Assembly: GCA_016186435.1 (NCBI GenBank)
Contig: JACPLQ010000014.1
Span: 6,540 to 40,672 of the forward strand
Length of the DNA stretch: 34,133 bases
Source: Candidatus Nomurabacteria bacterium
GTDB taxonomy: Bacteria; Patescibacteriota; Minisyncoccia; Phycocordibacterales; UBA9973
Direction: 5' to 3'
The first letter of the stretch is position 1. Every line of letters begins with the position of its first letter. The translations under genes and the position numbers were made by a program. Shown in pieces: positions 1-28,647 of this stretch. The notes beneath the pieces were generated by a model. That model was given only the letters and a program-made list of their open reading frames with translations, ran no database searches and was not told the DNA's origin.

Positions 1-81
1 CTTTAAGGCGGTTTATAGTAAATTGGTGCGTGAGGCCTTACGCTTTAGCTAGTGCCTAGAGCCTAGAGCCTGTATTTAGTT

Positions 82-504
82 ATGCCAACAATAAACCAAT
101 TAATAAAGAAAAATAGAGTAAAAATTCACTCTAAACACAAGACTGTAGCTTTGGCGAAGGGTTTTAATGTTCTCAAAAACAGACCTGTATTTTATCCCGC
201 GCCCTTCAAGCGAGGGGTCTGTGTCAAAGTTTCCACGACTACTCCCAAGAAGCCAAACTCGGCCCTAAGAAAAATAGCTCGGGTTCGTCTTACCAACGGC
301 ATGGAAGTTACCGCGTATATTCCCGGCGAAGGACACAATTTGCAAGAACACTCCGTGGTCATGCTCCGCGGTGGCCGTGTGAAGGATTTAATCGGAGTGC
401 GATATCACATTGTGCGCGGTGTGCTCGATACGCAGGGCGTAGAGAAGCGCCGACAGGGCAGGTCACTTTATGGTAACAAGAAGCCCAGAGAAGCAAAGAA
501 ATAA
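82..504 (+). CDS. rpsL: 30S ribosomal protein S12
   Basis: Conserved [13 protein letters not shown] and GGRVKDL-GVRYH motifs; first gene of str operon. Confidence 0.97.
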
Positions 505-536
505 ATTTTTAATTTTTAATTACTAATTTCTAAAAA

Positions 537-1007
537 ATGAGAAGAAAAGTAAAAACACGCAATCCGGTAGAACCTGATTTCATATACAACTCGCAAAAAC
601 TCGAGAAGTTCATAAACTACATCATGTGGTCCGGCAAGAAAGAGACAGCGCGCAAAGTGATGTACGCCGCCTTTGATGTAATAAAAGAAAAAACCGGGAA
701 TCCCAATCCGCTGGAAGTTTTTGATCTTGCGCTCAAGAACGCAGGCCCGATGACCGAAGTCCGCTCCAAGCGTATCGGCGGCGCTAACTATCAGGTGCCT
801 ATCGAGGTCCGGCCGGAACGCCGGCTCGCGCTTTCTATGCGCTGGATCCGAGATGCCGCGAGAAATGGCAAGGGTCGCCCGATGCATTTGAAACTAGCCG
901 ACGAATTGATTGCCGCTTCCAAAAACGAAGGCGCGGCGGTTAAAAAGAAAGAAGATACTCATCGCATGGCCGAAGCCAACAAGGCCTTTGCGCACTTCGC
1001 TTGGTGA
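537..1007 (+). CDS. rpsG: 30S ribosomal protein S7
   Basis: MRRKV..., IGGANYQVPIEVRPERR, C-terminal HRMAEANKAFAHFAW. Confidence 0.97.
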   Translation: MRRKVKTRNPVEPDFIYNSQKLEKFINYIMWSGKKETARKVMYAAFDVIKEKTGNPNPLEVFDLALKNAGPMTEVRSKRIGGANYQVPIEVRPERRLALSMRWIRDAARNGKGRPMHLKLADELIAASKNEGAAVKKKEDTHRMAEANKAFAHFAW

Positions 1008-1029
1008 TTTTTGCGTAGCAAAAATCACC
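1003..1029 (+). repeat. Perfect 12-bp stem-loop overlapping the rpsG stop codon (GGTGATTTTTGC-GTA-GCAAAAATCACC)
   Basis: Read directly; TGA stop lies in the left arm; related hairpin recurs at 1987-2015. Confidence 0.85.
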
Positions 1030-1049
1030 CTGAGCTTGATAAGTAAGTG

Positions 1050-1076
1050 GCTCGGCAAGAGGAATCCTTGCCGAGC
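1050..1076 (+). terminator. Stem-loop GCTCGGCAAG-N7-CTTGCCGAGC, possible terminator or processing site
   Basis: 10-bp perfect inverted repeat; only a weak downstream T-rich stretch. Confidence 0.4.
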
Positions 1077-1112
1077 TTGCGCTTTTGTAATTTTTGGAAT
1101 AGCATTATTTAC

Positions 1113-1298
1113 ATGAATGGTATTGCAATCAACAAAATCAGTAACGAAATAAAAGCTCTTGTTTTTGGAGCGGTTTTTGATGTGCTAAATGATCCAGATT
1201 ATGGCCTCAATTTAAGCGCTCAGGTCAAGAAAAGACTCTCCGCGCCCTTGAAAGGCAAGACAGTTTCACTTACTCAGATTAAGAAAAAGTACCTCTAG
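1113..1298 (+). CDS. Putative antitoxin of RelE/ParE-type module
   Basis: Small ORF (ATG 1113 within ORF 1047-1298) immediately upstream of a RelE-like toxin. Confidence 0.6.
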   Translation: MNGIAINKISNEIKALVFGAVFDVLNDPDYGLNLSAQVKKRLSAPLKGKTVSLTQIKKKYL

Positions 1299-1568
1299 AT
1301 GCCGAATTGGTCAGTAGAGTTTACTTCGGAAGCGGAGAAAGATCTGGCCGGTTTGGATCGGGGTATTCGTTTGAGAATAATTGAGAAACTAGAATGGCTT
1401 GAGAAAAATTTTGATGCCACTTTGCCCTCTATTTTGACGGCCGACTTCCGAGACTATTTCAAGCTACGAGTTGGCGACTGGCGAGTTTTCTATCAAGTTG
1501 ACTGGGGACGTAACTTAATTATCATAAGATATATAGGACATCGGAGCAAATCCTACAAGAAAAGATAA
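1299..1568 (+). CDS. RelE/ParE-family toxin
   Basis: WSVEFTSEAEKDLAGLDRGIRLRIIEKLEWL...YFKLRVGDWRVFYQVDW...IRYIGHRSKSYKKR is RelE-like. Confidence 0.88.
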   Translation: MPNWSVEFTSEAEKDLAGLDRGIRLRIIEKLEWLEKNFDATLPSILTADFRDYFKLRVGDWRVFYQVDWGRNLIIIRYIGHRSKSYKKR

Positions 1569-1612
1569 TTTTTATTGGAATTATTTTTTATTGGAATTAT
1601 AAAGACCTATAT

Positions 1613-1813
1613 ATGTCAGTAAAACCCTCTTACAAGCTTGTTAAATCTTTAACCAGAAACGATGGTTGGTGTTTTGCCATAGTAAATGGCAAGCTGGCGG
1701 AAATCTATTTTAAGAAAAACCACGGAATTTGGGCGCACTGCTATGAAAAAGAATCTTCTTATAAAACGAAACAAGAAAAGAAATGGATAAAAGCAGACAC
1801 AAGAAAATTCTAG
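1613..1813 (+). CDS. Small hypothetical protein (66 aa)
   Basis: ORF track; no recognised family. Confidence 0.45.
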   Translation: MSVKPSYKLVKSLTRNDGWCFAIVNGKLAEIYFKKNHGIWAHCYEKESSYKTKQEKKWIKADTRKF

Positions 1814-1886
1814 CTTAGCTATAAAAAAGGTCACTATTACGATCTAAATAGAAAATTAAAACAAAAAATTAATGCGCAAACATTAT

Positions 1887-1962
1887 AAAAATAAATAGCT
1901 AGCGAGGACTGTCCTAGCTAGTCTAAAAATAAATAGCTAGCGAGGACTGTCCTAGCTAGTCT
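1887..1962 (+). repeat. Two tandem identical 38-bp units each containing CTAGCgAGGACTGTCCTaGCTAG palindrome
   Basis: aaaaataaatagctagcgaggactgtcctagctagtct at 1887-1924 and 1925-1962. Confidence 0.95.
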
Positions 1963-1964
1963 AC

Positions 1965-2015
1965 AAAGCCTTCGCGCATTTTGCTTGGTAATTTTTTGCA
2001 CAGCAAAAAATTACC
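1965..2015 (+). pseudogene. Second copy of rpsG 3' coding tail (KAFAHFAW-stop) plus stem-loop
   Basis: aaa gcc ttc gcg cat ttt gct tgg taa (1965-1991) encodes the same peptide as rpsG 981-1007 with synonymous codons; 13-bp perfect hairpin 1987-2015. Confidence 0.85.
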
Positions 2016-2224
2016 CTGAGCTTGTCGAAGGGTAGGTGTGATCTGCGCCATAGCGTAGATTTTTTTATAATCTACTCAAATTCTGCCATGGCTGGAAATG
2101 AGTAGGTTCTTTGGGTGCCTGCGGGGTAGTGAGCTATGCTCTACTGCCCTGTGCATAACTCGTCCTTGCCAAAACTTATCGGGGGGGGGTATTATTTGGG
2201 TATTAATATTTAACCAAAAAATTT

Positions 2225-2398
2225 ATGGGATTTGATAACATGCCCGACCTAGAATATGATCCTCTTGGTGTTGCGGATTATAATAAAGAGAGAGATTCCA
2301 AAATAGAAAAAATAAAGTCAAAACTAAATCTGTTGCAAAATGGCGAAATGGATGAGATTTTATCTATTATTGCAAAATTTGAAGCACAGTCTAAGTAG
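2225..2398 (+). CDS. Small hypothetical protein (57 aa)
   Basis: MGFDNMPDLEYDPLGVADYNKERDSKIEKIKSKLNLLQNGEMDEILSIIAKFEAQSK; below ORF-track cutoff. Confidence 0.45.
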   Translation: MGFDNMPDLEYDPLGVADYNKERDSKIEKIKSKLNLLQNGEMDEILSIIAKFEAQSK

Positions 2399-2440
2399 AT
2401 TTTAGATGTTTGCAAAAAAACATCTAATAATGTATATTAC

Positions 2441-2465
2441 AAAAAGCGCATTGGGCGCTTTTTTA
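2441..2465 (+). terminator. Rho-independent-like terminator AAAAAGCGC-ATTG-GGCGCTTTTTT
   Basis: Stem plus T run. Confidence 0.75.
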
Positions 2466-2472
2466 TTGGTAC

Positions 2473-2545
2473 ACCCGCACACTTAATAGTGCGAGGTTAT
2501 TAAAATAACGCACCTTTGGTGCATCGCACAGTTAAGTGTGCGGGT
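2473..2545 (+). promoter_or_regulatory. Three-way-junction palindromic element immediately 5' of fusA ATG (2550)
   Basis: P1 2473-2486/2532-2545 (14 bp), P1b 2489-2494/2524-2529, P2 GTTAT-TAAA-ATAAC 2496-2509, P3 GCACC-TTT-GGTGC 2510-2522. Confidence 0.8.
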
Positions 2546-2549
2546 AAAC

Positions 2550-4721
2550 ATGGAACGAGACTATCCACTAGAAAAAGTCAGGAATATTGGAATTATCGCG
2601 CATATTGACGCGGGCAAGACGACCACGACCGAGCGCGTGCTTTTTTATACCGGCGTGTCGCACAAAATCGGCGAAGTGCATGAAGGCGACACGGTGACCG
2701 ACTGGATGGAACAAGAGCGCGAACGCGGCATCACCATTACCTCTGCCGCAGTCACTTGTTTCTGGACTCCCTCCTACGCCAAGGCTACGGAGGGCAAGCC
2801 GACCAAAGAATTTAAACACCGTTTCAATATCATTGACACTCCCGGCCACATTGATTTCACTGTGGAGGTGAAGCGGTCGCTTCGCGTGCTGGACGGCGCC
2901 GTCGTAGTTTTTGACGGAGTGGCGGGCGTAGAGCCGCAGTCGGAAACCAACTGGCGCTACGCGGATGAAGCTAAGGTGCCGCGCGTATGCTTTATAAATA
3001 AACTGGATCGCACCGGCGCATCCTTTGAACATTCTTACGCAACTATTTTAGACCGGCTTACCAAGAAAGCCGTACGCATGCAGATACCTATCGGCCTGGA
3101 GGAAAAGCACGAAGGCGTCATTGATCTTCTTCACATGAAAGCCTTTTACTTTGAAGGCGAAATGGGTAATAAGGTCATCGAAAAAGGCTTAGATTCTTTG
3201 CCCGAAGAATTAAAAGCCGAGGCGGAAAAATACCATCACGAATTGATAGAAAAAATAGTGGAAACGGACGATGTCATGATGACCGAATATCTGGAAGGCA
3301 TGATCCCGAACATCGATTCGCTCAAAAAGGCCATGCGCAAAGCGGTGATAGACAATGAAATTTTCCCCGTGTTTGCCGGCAGCGCGCTCAAGAACAAGGG
3401 CGTCCAGCTCGTGCTCGATGCGGTGGTAGACTATTTGCCATCGCCCTTGGATATTCCGCCGATAAATGGTATCGATCCCAATACGGACGAGAAGGCCGTA
3501 CGGCACGCTTCCGATGCGGAGCCATTCTCGGCGCTAGCGTTTAAAGTCGCGACCGATCCTTTTGTGGGCCAGATAATTTTCTTCCGCGTGTACTCCGGAA
3601 CTCTCGTGGCCGGTAGCTATGTTTATAATCCCAGAACCCGCAACAAAGAGCGCATCGGGCGCATTCTCCGCATGCATGCCAATGACCGTGAAGAAGTCAA
3701 GAAAGTTTTTGCCGGCGAGATTGCCGCGGCCGTGGGTCTAAAAGACACCATCACCTCGGACACTATTTGCGATGAAGACAAACCCATAGAACTTGACCGC
3801 ATAGTTTTCCCGGAGCCGGTCATTTCGCTTCGCATTGAGCCCAAGACCAAAGCGGACCAGGAGAAAATGGGCATGGCGCTCAACCGTCTGGCCCAGGAAG
3901 ACCCGACTTTTAAAGTTTCCACCGACCAGGAAACCGGTGAGACCATCATCGCGGGTATGGGGGAGCTCCATCTGGAAATAATCGTGGATCGCATGAAGCG
4001 AGAATTTTCCGTGGAAGCCAATGTCGGCAAGCCGCAGGTAGCTTATCGTGAGACGATTACTGCCGACTCTTCCGCCGAAGGCAAATACATCAAGCAGAGC
4101 GGCGGCCGTGGAAACTACGGACATGTGAAGATTAAGATCAAGCCTATGGCGATGCTCACGAAAGAAGAGCTGGAAGACCTTCCGAAGAATACCAAGCGCG
4201 ATGAGCATTTTGAATTCGTCAACAACATCAAGGGCGGCGTCATTCCTCAAGAATACATCGCGCCCTGCGAAAAAGGATTTCGGGAAGGATTGGATCGCGG
4301 CGTGCTTGCCGGATTTAAAATTGTGAATGTGTCGGTGGATCTCTGGGATGGCAGTTATCACGAAGTGGATTCCAACGAAATGGCTTTCAAAATTGCCGCA
4401 AGTATGGCCGTGCAGGATGCCTGCCGGAGCGCCAAGCCGGTGATACTCGAGCCTATGATGAAAGTAGAAGTGGTAACCCCCGAGAAATTTATGGGCGATG
4501 TCACTGGGAACCTTTCCAGTAAGCGCGGACTTATTGAGGGCATGGAAGACCGCGGTATGAACAAAGTATTGAAAGCTGTGGTGCCTCTTTCCGAGATGTT
4601 CGGCTATATGACCGGTCTCCGCTCCATGACCGAAGGCCGCGCCTCATTCACTATGGAATTCTTCAGATACGACATAGTGCCTCAAAACGTTGCTGAAACT
4701 ATTATTGCAGCAAGGAAATAA
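2550..4721 (+). CDS. fusA: Elongation factor G (ORF track start GTG 2538; ATG 2550 preferred)
   Basis: [55 protein letters not shown]. Confidence 0.97.
2769..2794 (+). repeat. In-frame palindromic insertion in fusA encoding SYAKATEG
   Basis: ccctcctacgccaaggctacggaggg between switch I and DTPGH motif. Confidence 0.7.
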
Positions 4722-4748
4722 AAAACTGCCCGTTTGGGCAGTTTTTTG
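4722..4748 (+). terminator. Terminator AAAAAACTGCCC-GTTT-GGGCAGTTTTTT
   Basis: Stem plus T run directly after fusA stop. Confidence 0.9.
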
Positions 4749-4761
4749 CTAGAATGTGTTC

Positions 4762-5877
4762 ATGTTCCACACACCTTTCTATGACCCCGATAAATCTTAC
4801 GAAGAAAATTTTCAAGAAGGGCCTTTTGGGGCTTTTGCGGACGGTAAGGTTTTTCCCGCCAGAGGCGCCGCGCCTGCCAAATACGGCGGGCAGGGACCAG
4901 CCTCTGGCTGGGATTTTTTGGGTTTTAAAGCAAATTCGCCTTTTGGGATTCCAGCAGGACCTTTACTAAACAGCAATTTTTGCAAGGCTGCTTTTGAAAA
5001 AGGTTTTGATATTTGCGTTTACAAGACGGTCCGTTCTAGCGCATATCCTTGTCATCCGTTTCCAAATGTTTTAGCGGTAAAAGTTGATGGAGATTTAACA
5101 TACGAAAAAGCGCAAGGTAAGTTAGTAGCCGATAATAATTATCACGAACCTATTTCTATTACGAATTCTTTCGGTGTGCCTTCTAGAGATTCAAAAGTCT
5201 GGCAGGAAGATGTAAAAAAAGCTATTTCTTATGCTCGCGAAGGCCAAGTTTTAATTCTGGGATTTATGGGCACAGTTCGCGAAGGCCAAACAGCAGAAGA
5301 ATTTATCGCCGATTACGCTTTGGCAGCAAGACAGGCAAAAGAAACCGGAGTAAAAGTTTTAGAGACAAATTTGTCCTGTCCAAACATCGGCAACGAAGGA
5401 CTTGTCTGTTACAACTTGGATATGACGGAAAAAGTTTGCGAGGCAATACGAAAGGAAATCGGGGATACGCCTTTAATTTTGAAAGTCGGTTATTATAAAG
5501 ATTACGAAGATGTAAAAAAGCTGGCAGAGATTTGTAAAAAATATGCGCAGGCTATTTCTGCGATCAATACCATTCCCGCAGAAGTTGTGAATAAAGAAGG
5601 GAAGCAGGCATTGCCGGGGCCAAATAGGCTAAAGTCTGGCGTTTGCGGAGCTTCCATCAAGTGGGCGGGGCTTGAAATGGCAGAGAAGTTAAAAAAAGCG
5701 CGAGAAGAAACAGGGGGTAATTTTAAAATCATTGGCGTCGGCGGGGTAACTACACCTGAAGATTTCTTTGAATACCGAAAAGCCGGTGCGGATTTTGTAA
5801 TGTCTGCGACAGGCGCAATGTGGAACCCCTACCTTGCACAGGAGATTAAAGAAAAGTTAAAACCTGCCCCGCACTAA
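4762..5877 (+). CDS. pyrD: Dihydroorotate dehydrogenase
   Basis: SPFGIPAGPLLNS, ETNLSCPNIGNEG, LKVGYYKD, IGVGGVTTPEDFFEYRKAGADFVMSATG. Confidence 0.88.
   Translation: MFHTPFYDPDKSYEENFQEGPFGAFADGKVFPARGAAPAKYGGQGPASGWDFLGFKANSPFGIPAGPLLNSNFCKAAFEKGFDICVYKTVRSSAYPCHPFPNVLAVKVDGDLTYEKAQGKLVADNNYHEPISITNSFGVPSRDSKVWQEDVKKAISYAREGQVLILGFMGTVREGQTAEEFIADYALAARQAKETGVKVLETNLSCPNIGNEGLVCYNLDMTEKVCEAIRKEIGDTPLILKVGYYKDYEDVKKLAEICKKYAQAISAINTIPAEVVNKEGKQALPGPNRLKSGVCGASIKWAGLEMAEKLKKAREETGGNFKIIGVGGVTTPEDFFEYRKAGADFVMSATGAMWNPYLAQEIKEKLKPAPH
4858..4908 (+). repeat. Nested palindrome in pyrD coding region
   Basis: GCCAGAGGC 4858-4866 pairs GCCTCTGGC 4900-4908; CCTGCC 4873-4878 pairs GGCAGG 4889-4894. 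Confidence 0.75.
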
Positions 5878-5940
5878 ATTTTTGATTACATGATATTATG
5901 ATAAAGTTAATTATTAAAATTTTAGTGCTGGGGTAATAAC

Positions 5941-8628: not shown

Positions 8629-9819
<1,191 letters not shown>

Positions 9820-9876
9820 TTATAAATTACGAATAAAAATTTGAAATTCGTAATTGTCAGTTGGTAATTGAGTACT

Positions 9877-10293
9877 ATGACAACAGCACAGACAAAAACA
9901 AAAAGAGTCCCGACCAAAGTCGGGATCTCGACAAAGAAAAAGGTCGGGACCAAGGCTAAAGCTGTCAAGGCAGAAAAAGCAGAGGGGAAAGTGGTTCTTC
10001 GCATCCGAGTTCGCGCTTACGAGAGCAAAATCTTGGACGCTTCTGTTAAACAGATCATTGATACCGCAACGAGATACGATGCGAGTATCGTAGGTCCTGT
10101 GCCGCTGCCGACCGAAATAAAAAAATATACCGTCAATCGCTCTTCTTTTGTTTACAAAAACGCAAGAGAACAGTTTGAAATAAGAGTGCACAAAAGATTG
10201 ATTGATATTATAAATCCGAACACAAAGACCGTCGAGGCCCTTACTAATTTATCTCTGCCTTCCGGAGTTGATATTGACGTCAAGATGATGTAG
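9877..10293 (+). CDS. rpsJ: 30S ribosomal protein S10 with repeat-derived N-terminal extension
   Basis: Core RIRVRAYESKILDASVKQIIDTATR...GPVPLPT; extension contains TCCCGAC-CAAA-GTCGGGA palindrome 9908-9925. Confidence 0.93.
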   Translation: MTTAQTKTKRVPTKVGISTKKKVGTKAKAVKAEKAEGKVVLRIRVRAYESKILDASVKQIIDTATRYDASIVGPVPLPTEIKKYTVNRSSFVYKNAREQFEIRVHKRLIDIINPNTKTVEALTNLSLPSGVDIDVKMM

Positions 10294-12817: not shown

Positions 12818-12895
12818 CTCACCCCGTATGCTTCGCATCCACCCCTCTCCATAATTTAAATTATGGAGAGGGGCTGGGGAGAGGTTTCCCCCTGA
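12818..12895 (+). repeat. CCCCTCTCC palindrome family, copy 1, with 32-bp perfect palindrome core at 12842-12873
   Basis: CCCCTCTCCATAATTTAAATTATGGAGAGGGG; related copies at 25559 and 28577. Confidence 0.92.
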
Positions 12896-25558: not shown

Positions 25559-25625
25559 ACCTCACCTCAGCCCCTCTCCATTTCAAAAATGGAGAGGGGC
25601 GGCTGCTTCAGGCAGACGGGGAGAG
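25559..25625 (+). repeat. CCCCTCTCC palindrome family, copy 2
   Basis: CCCCTCTCCAT...ATGGAGAGGGG. Confidence 0.88.
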
Positions 25626-28576: not shown

Positions 28577-28647
28577 CCCTCACCCCTGACCCCTCTCCAT
28601 AATTTATTTATGGAGAGGGGTGGATGCAGTAGCAGACGGGGTGAGGT
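28577..28647 (+). repeat. CCCCTCTCC palindrome family, copy 3
   Basis: CCCCTCTCCATAA-TTTAT-TTATGGAGAGGGG core at 28590-28620, flanks cctcaccc/ggggtgagg. Confidence 0.9.

Follow-up and report, generated by a model that had tools for sequence, protein, structure and literature searches.

The window, a stretch of 34,133 nt from a Candidatus Nomurabacteria bacterium, carries the EF-G gene fusA, whose start codon at 2550 is preceded by a likely promoter, a leader hairpin and a palindromic element that ends 4 nt before the ATG, as the sequence-only reading had stated. The order in the leader is promoter plus hairpin (2409–2467), element, and AAAC-ATG. The features are as follows.

2409–2438, forward strand: TTGCAA-17-TATATT, the likely fusA promoter, ahead of the element; it recurs before fusA in relatives without adjacent rpsG
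2441–2467, forward strand: hairpin of the fusA leader, GCGC..GCGC with a T-run after it; same arrangement in relatives
2470–2473: left flank TACA, candidate decayed 4-nt target repeat (three of four bases match TAAA), in the register taken from 48 of 66 other copies
2473–2545, forward strand: three-way-junction palindromic element, full copy (fold z −8.8; 90.6 bits against model R1; covariation in 63 family copies)
2473–2494, forward strand: left arm, outer stem ACCCGCACACTTAA plus GTGCGA; inverted repeat, 91% complementary
2496–2509, forward strand: apical hairpin 1, GTTATTAAAATAAC, predicted by RNAfold; helix 2, with both-side changes at 5 of 5 pairs
2510–2522, forward strand: apical hairpin 2, GCACCTTTGGTGC, predicted by RNAfold; helix 3, with both-side changes at 5 of 5 pairs
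2524–2545, forward strand: right arm, TCGCAC plus TTAAGTGTGCGGGT; inverted repeat, with single-arm relatives elsewhere in the genome
2545–2548: right flank TAAA, candidate target repeat; the most frequent target words include TAAA/TTTA (TTTA 12, TAAA 5)
2550–4721, forward strand: fusA (EF-G) coding sequence, an ORF with full-length homologues in the genus that are 87–91% identical

RNAfold gives a single dominant fold for 2473–2545, a near-perfect three-way junction in which the minimum-free-energy and centroid structures coincide at −42.1 kcal/mol (z −8.8); shuffled sequences average −16.7 kcal/mol, and none of 200 is as stable. All helices named by the sequence-only reading are found both in the letters and in the fold. 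In the fold, its 2x2 internal loop, TA/AG, becomes a U.G pair and one A/A mismatch. Within window positions 1–5000 there is no second inverted repeat comparable to these 22-nt arms with 91% complementarity. Farther on, a branched palindrome at 5866–5934, GGGGTAATAACATGG, also ends just before an ATG; it scores 21 bits against the model and is perhaps a distant relative. A chance or degenerate sequence is not what lies before fusA: dozens of other copies show this architecture again, with covariation, which puts it far beyond chance.

A dispersed family with a kept fold

The genome comprises 706 kb in 29 contigs, and its relatives in the genus, class and phylum, mostly draft assemblies, have about 0.4–1.3 Mb. 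Genomes this small, together with EF-G and LepA of bacterial type, suggest a Patescibacteria (CPR) lineage. The sample taken from the genome itself consists of the window and further stretches, 389 kb in all. A short-arm search there finds paired arms on several other contigs. Besides the fusA copy, full copies lie on C4, C15 and C14; those on C15 and C4 repeat the stem-plus-two-hairpins layout but differ in stem sequence. C1, C2, C9, C13, C21 and C28 carry simpler hairpins that have these arms. A covariance model, R1, was built from three copies. It has matches in 32 of 80 genus genomes, with at most 14 matches per genome when both strands are counted and E values down to 1e-15 outside this genome. 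From the genus 68 copies were read out, 68–78 nt in length; the element measures about 66–76 bp between 4-bp target duplications. A second model, R2, built from 63 copies, has matches in at least 57 of 387 class genomes and 48 of 296 genera, a lower bound since filters were strict and few candidates were scored per genome. Several of these class copies carry 4-nt repeats, and beyond the class there are weak matches only.

The family is defined by its ends, CCC(G/C)CACACYTA with an inverted copy, and by a core of two adjacent hairpins; the CCC(G/C)CACAC ends are conserved in the 63 copies. The covariance search in related genomes thus reveals dispersed copies at many unrelated sites. By their flanking proteins the copies fall into 28 neighbourhoods, a figure that errs low, since paralogous surface proteins link some of them into chains. 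A simple count of ORFs places most copies between genes, and 19 of the 36 in tandem-gene settings lie in the sense orientation, showing no orientation bias. Some occur near orthologous genes in several species, for example upstream of a surface-protein gene, which could point to a role at those loci or to a single hot spot that was hit more than once. No description of this palindrome family was found in the literature searched.

Base pairing is preserved throughout the family. In a plain MAFFT alignment of 63 genus copies, not fitted to the structure, standard pairs fill 91.6% of pair cells against 74.0% after shuffling and 34–53% when the pairing is slid. Compensatory changes, altering both sides, occur at 25 of the 31 base pairs, and all three helices covary. 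The covariation score is 0.523 versus 0.187, and no shuffle out of 500 equals it; such shuffle tests are inflated by the relatedness of the copies, and the slid controls lie far below. In counts meant to separate selection on RNA from selection on DNA, G.U outnumbers A.C by 66 to 38, in an orientation chosen by a model that itself favours G.U. The copies were gathered with a model containing this structure, which favours paired copies, but this is a minor concern because the covariation is large across stems that the first model never saw.

Larger and different palindromes accompany the family. A subfamily of about 137 nt that keeps the family arms around a larger branched interior is seen at L078:547–684, L115:10853–10989 and L158:291–426, two of the three having TAAA or TTAT direct repeats, and at L269:63–181 a palindrome with the family arms encloses an apparent tRNA gene, as read by eye. 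A second dispersed family, CCCCTCTCCAT..ATGGAGAGGGG, has 11 copies including variants in the 389 kb; its sites include window positions 12842–12873, 25570–25600 and 28589–28621, and L098, L102, L103 and L106. A third, of branched palindromes of about 83–92 bp with the form ATTC(C/T)CCTCTTGAGG..CCTCAAGAGG(A/G)GAAT, is found at L099:3599–3681, L100:7606–7688, L107:10528–10613, L112:7029–7111 and L115:11008–11099. Two inverted repeats at L110:2582–2661 and 9808–9883 differ in their arms and share the core ATTACTCCAGCCTT(C/T)GGCTGGAACCTTCC.

Target repeats and filled sites

The direct repeats are read in a register of three flank bases plus the terminal base of the element. The same 4-nt word stands on both sides in 48 of 66 distinct copies, whereas 6.4 are expected from swapping flanks, and the maximum in 20,000 permutations was 18. 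The words are TTTA/TAAA, TTAT/ATAA, CAAG/CTTG, TTGA/TCAA, CCAG, TATA and TTTT. The fusA copy has no perfect 4-nt repeat, with TACA on the left and TAAA on the right. Nearly all TTAT/ATAA copies abut TTATCCACA, a 9-mer with only 13 occurrences in the 389 kb, or its complement; these copies are not all independent because several adjoin the same surface- or membrane-protein gene across species. At L127, L173, L176, L119 and L149, in several species, copies at TTATCCACA, a DnaA-box sequence, precede the same surface-protein gene; their stems differ greatly, and one has its core reversed.

Two protein genes display both filled and empty sites. In lepA, G072 and G019 carry an in-frame insertion of 72 nt (24 codons) flanked by TTTA, with TGTA on one side in G072; at the same codon a short in-frame palindrome stands in G088 and G002, and the remaining aligned genomes have no insertion. 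In recJ, a 24-codon, 72-nt in-frame insertion with a TTTA duplication is present in G100 and short palindromes in G027, G020 and G014, the rest being empty. The shortened alleles suggest that a full copy can turn into a simple hairpin on the spot when its apical hairpins are lost; events may also have run the other way.

Conserved terminal inverted repeats, a target duplication of constant length (imperfect at the fusA copy) and presence/absence polymorphism are all found, as expected of a MITE. The feature before fusA is, very probably, one copy of a dispersed, non-autonomous, MITE-like family of mobile palindromes. That a mobile palindrome had landed in the leader was one of two suggestions in the sequence-only reading, and it is borne out by the unrelated sites, the direct repeats of 48 of the 66 copies, and the empty and filled sites in lepA and recJ.

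Other readings of the element

One alternative is a REP-type element whose mobilisers would be the REP-associated Y1 (HUH) transposases (RAYTs) that these genomes encode. This genome has five Y1_Tnp genes, and within the genus Y1_Tnp is commoner in element-positive genomes (28 of 32) than in element-negative ones (27 of 48; p 0.003); in G004 RAYT-like ORFs have four copies between and beside them. However, a scan of 35 RAYT loci gives a single one with a copy inside 1.5 kb, at a distance of 0.7 kb, and some multi-copy genomes, such as G100 and G016, have no Y1_Tnp. The GTAG/CGTC tag is absent from the element, copies do not bracket RAYT genes at the loci scanned, the G004 cluster excepted, and the RAYT on C10 has another repeat, CCTAACGAT, on either side. 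IS200/IS605-type transposition would not be expected to leave variable 4-nt direct repeats. We consider a RAYT origin unlikely; as an adjacent mobiliser the RAYT is rejected on position (one of 35 loci), not fully on presence. At the G004 locus (L182, G004:C3:95175–102797), near-identical copies alternate with duplicated RAYT-like ORFs and also with repeated C-terminal peptidoglycan-binding segments.

A further alternative holds that the family is not mobile and represents transcription-factor operators or palindromic promoters, the flanking repeats being an extension of the palindrome. It draws on the short relatives. Among 23 copies examined, mostly short, 16 have TATA on a side and 7 have other flanks. 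TTGAxx lies 15–18 nt, mostly 16–17, before TATAxx in 14 of the 16 TATA copies and in none of the 7 others (p 1.5e-4), and an ATG often follows within about 20 nt of this arrangement. Short relatives at TATA look like promoters because they supply the TTGAxx box 15–18 nt upstream, with the palindrome arm as the spacer, and some recur before apparently the same gene starts in different species. Hairpin relatives forming TTGAxx-17-TATAxT are seen at L117:3988–4030, L107:11280–11328, L110:774–850, L100:17453–17511, L275, L277 and L284. Yet the repeats TTTA, CTTG, CAAG, TTAT and ATAA are direct and not inverted, the LepA and RecJ insertions lie inside coding regions, and, among the target words, the promoter arrangement was seen at TATA only. 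As an account of the whole family, operators or promoters are improbable. From their sequences, the TATA-type relatives look like insertions into a −10 box in which the copies that supplied a −35 box survived; a regulator-binding palindrome is the alternative for this subset.

The other suggestion of the sequence-only reading was a cis-regulatory RNA. On this view the element would be conserved upstream of fusA, and the fold of the leader would restrict the access of ribosomes and govern how much EF-G is made. The position is suitable: the very stable fold lies between the likely promoter with its leader hairpin and the ATG, 4 nt from the latter, and other, unrelated palindromes occupy the same gap in the leader in L058, L062 and L083. 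The hairpin at 2441–2465, which had been taken for a terminator, does consist of a GC hairpin and a T-run, but it looks like part of the fusA leader, not merely the end of the previous gene, because the promoter–hairpin pair recurs upstream of fusA in relatives. In about half of the relatives rpsG is directly upstream of fusA. The strict pattern, TTGCAA..TATAWT followed immediately by a GC hairpin and T-run, is present in 9 of 29 fusA upstream regions, and in more by eye; in the own-genome sample the promoter pattern, with TTGCAA at 2410–2415 and TATATT at 2433–2438, was found at this fusA site only. The module at 2409–2467, which precedes fusA in many relatives without adjacent rpsG, is a possible fusA-specific attenuator-like leader. 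The three-way junction does not share this conservation. Among the 29–30 fusA loci read in the genus, this genome alone has the full element in the leader, and in L059, L061 and L063 the T-run abuts the fusA ATG and leaves no room for it. Copies elsewhere adjoin unrelated genes in both orientations, contrary to a structure conserved upstream of fusA only, and the window has no Rfam match at gathering level. The element is not a conserved fusA riboregulator, and control of EF-G synthesis by it is very improbable; a local or modest effect on initiation of fusA translation is plausible as a by-product rather than a conserved function. A known Rfam RNA family is rejected, as relaxed thresholds add nothing real: the matches gained score far under the gathering cutoffs, and most are to models of a bare hairpin, miRNAs among them.

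A model for insertion and its relation to known elements

The mobile-palindrome reading can be put as a model. The element would move as DNA through an enzyme acting in trans, which would recognise its conserved ends and cut with a 4-nt stagger at AT-rich words, among them TTTA, TTAT (frequently inside TTATCCACA), CAAG/CTTG and TATA. Recognition probably extends to the folded single strand, which would account for the maintained base pairing. Insertions would survive where they are harmless, namely between genes, in frame in proteins, or at a −10 box for which the copy supplies a −35 box. At fusA the copy probably entered at GG-TAAA-CATGG, between the leader hairpin and the start codon; the pair TACA/TAAA suggests insertion at TAAA and one later change, by which the left repeat decayed to TACA. 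The copy would be co-transcribed as part of the 5′ leader.

The element is best labelled a MITE-like palindrome, with the Rickettsia palindromic elements as its closest analogue in function. These are short palindromic mobile repeats of a reduced genome that insert in frame in protein genes (PMC10969869). The likeness is one of behaviour, seen here in the 24-codon insertions in LepA and RecJ. The Rickettsia elements are about 150 bp, form families of their own and encode a conserved peptide, whereas the present element is about 70 bp, is bounded by CCC(G/C)CACAC, has a three-way junction as its core and carries 4-nt target repeats. With MITEs it shares terminal inverted repeats, short direct repeats, absence of coding capacity, AT-rich intergenic insertion, stable folds and multiple copies. 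It differs in that its core is a covarying hairpin pair and nearly the whole element is base-paired; a search of its own genome, allowing up to one or two mismatches in the arm, showed neither a parent insertion sequence nor an autonomous element that shares its ends. REPs are 20–40 bp with GTAG or CGTC tags (PMC3733652). The REP/BIME sequences of RAYTs resemble the element as extragenic palindromes of high fold stability, with Y1_Tnp genes in many of the same genomes; the element is unlike them in its length of 68–78 nt, its variable 4-nt direct repeats, the lack of a tag and positions that are not tied to RAYT genes.

Streamlined genomes of about 0.4–1.1 Mb are expected to be poor in mobile DNA, yet a folded palindrome has spread across a whole class, inserts in frame in LepA and RecJ, and appears to remake promoters on −10 boxes. 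The strong covariation raises the question of why mobile DNA keeps its fold. We tentatively propose that these are class-wide structured mobile palindromes of ultra-small bacteria whose three-way-junction fold is itself the substrate of the mobilising enzyme; with 4-nt targets that include the DnaA-box-like TTATCCACA and the −10 TATA, they may repeatedly build leaderless promoters and in-frame insertions and so may shape these streamlined genomes. The covariance model and the target-site rule provide a means to look for the enzyme.
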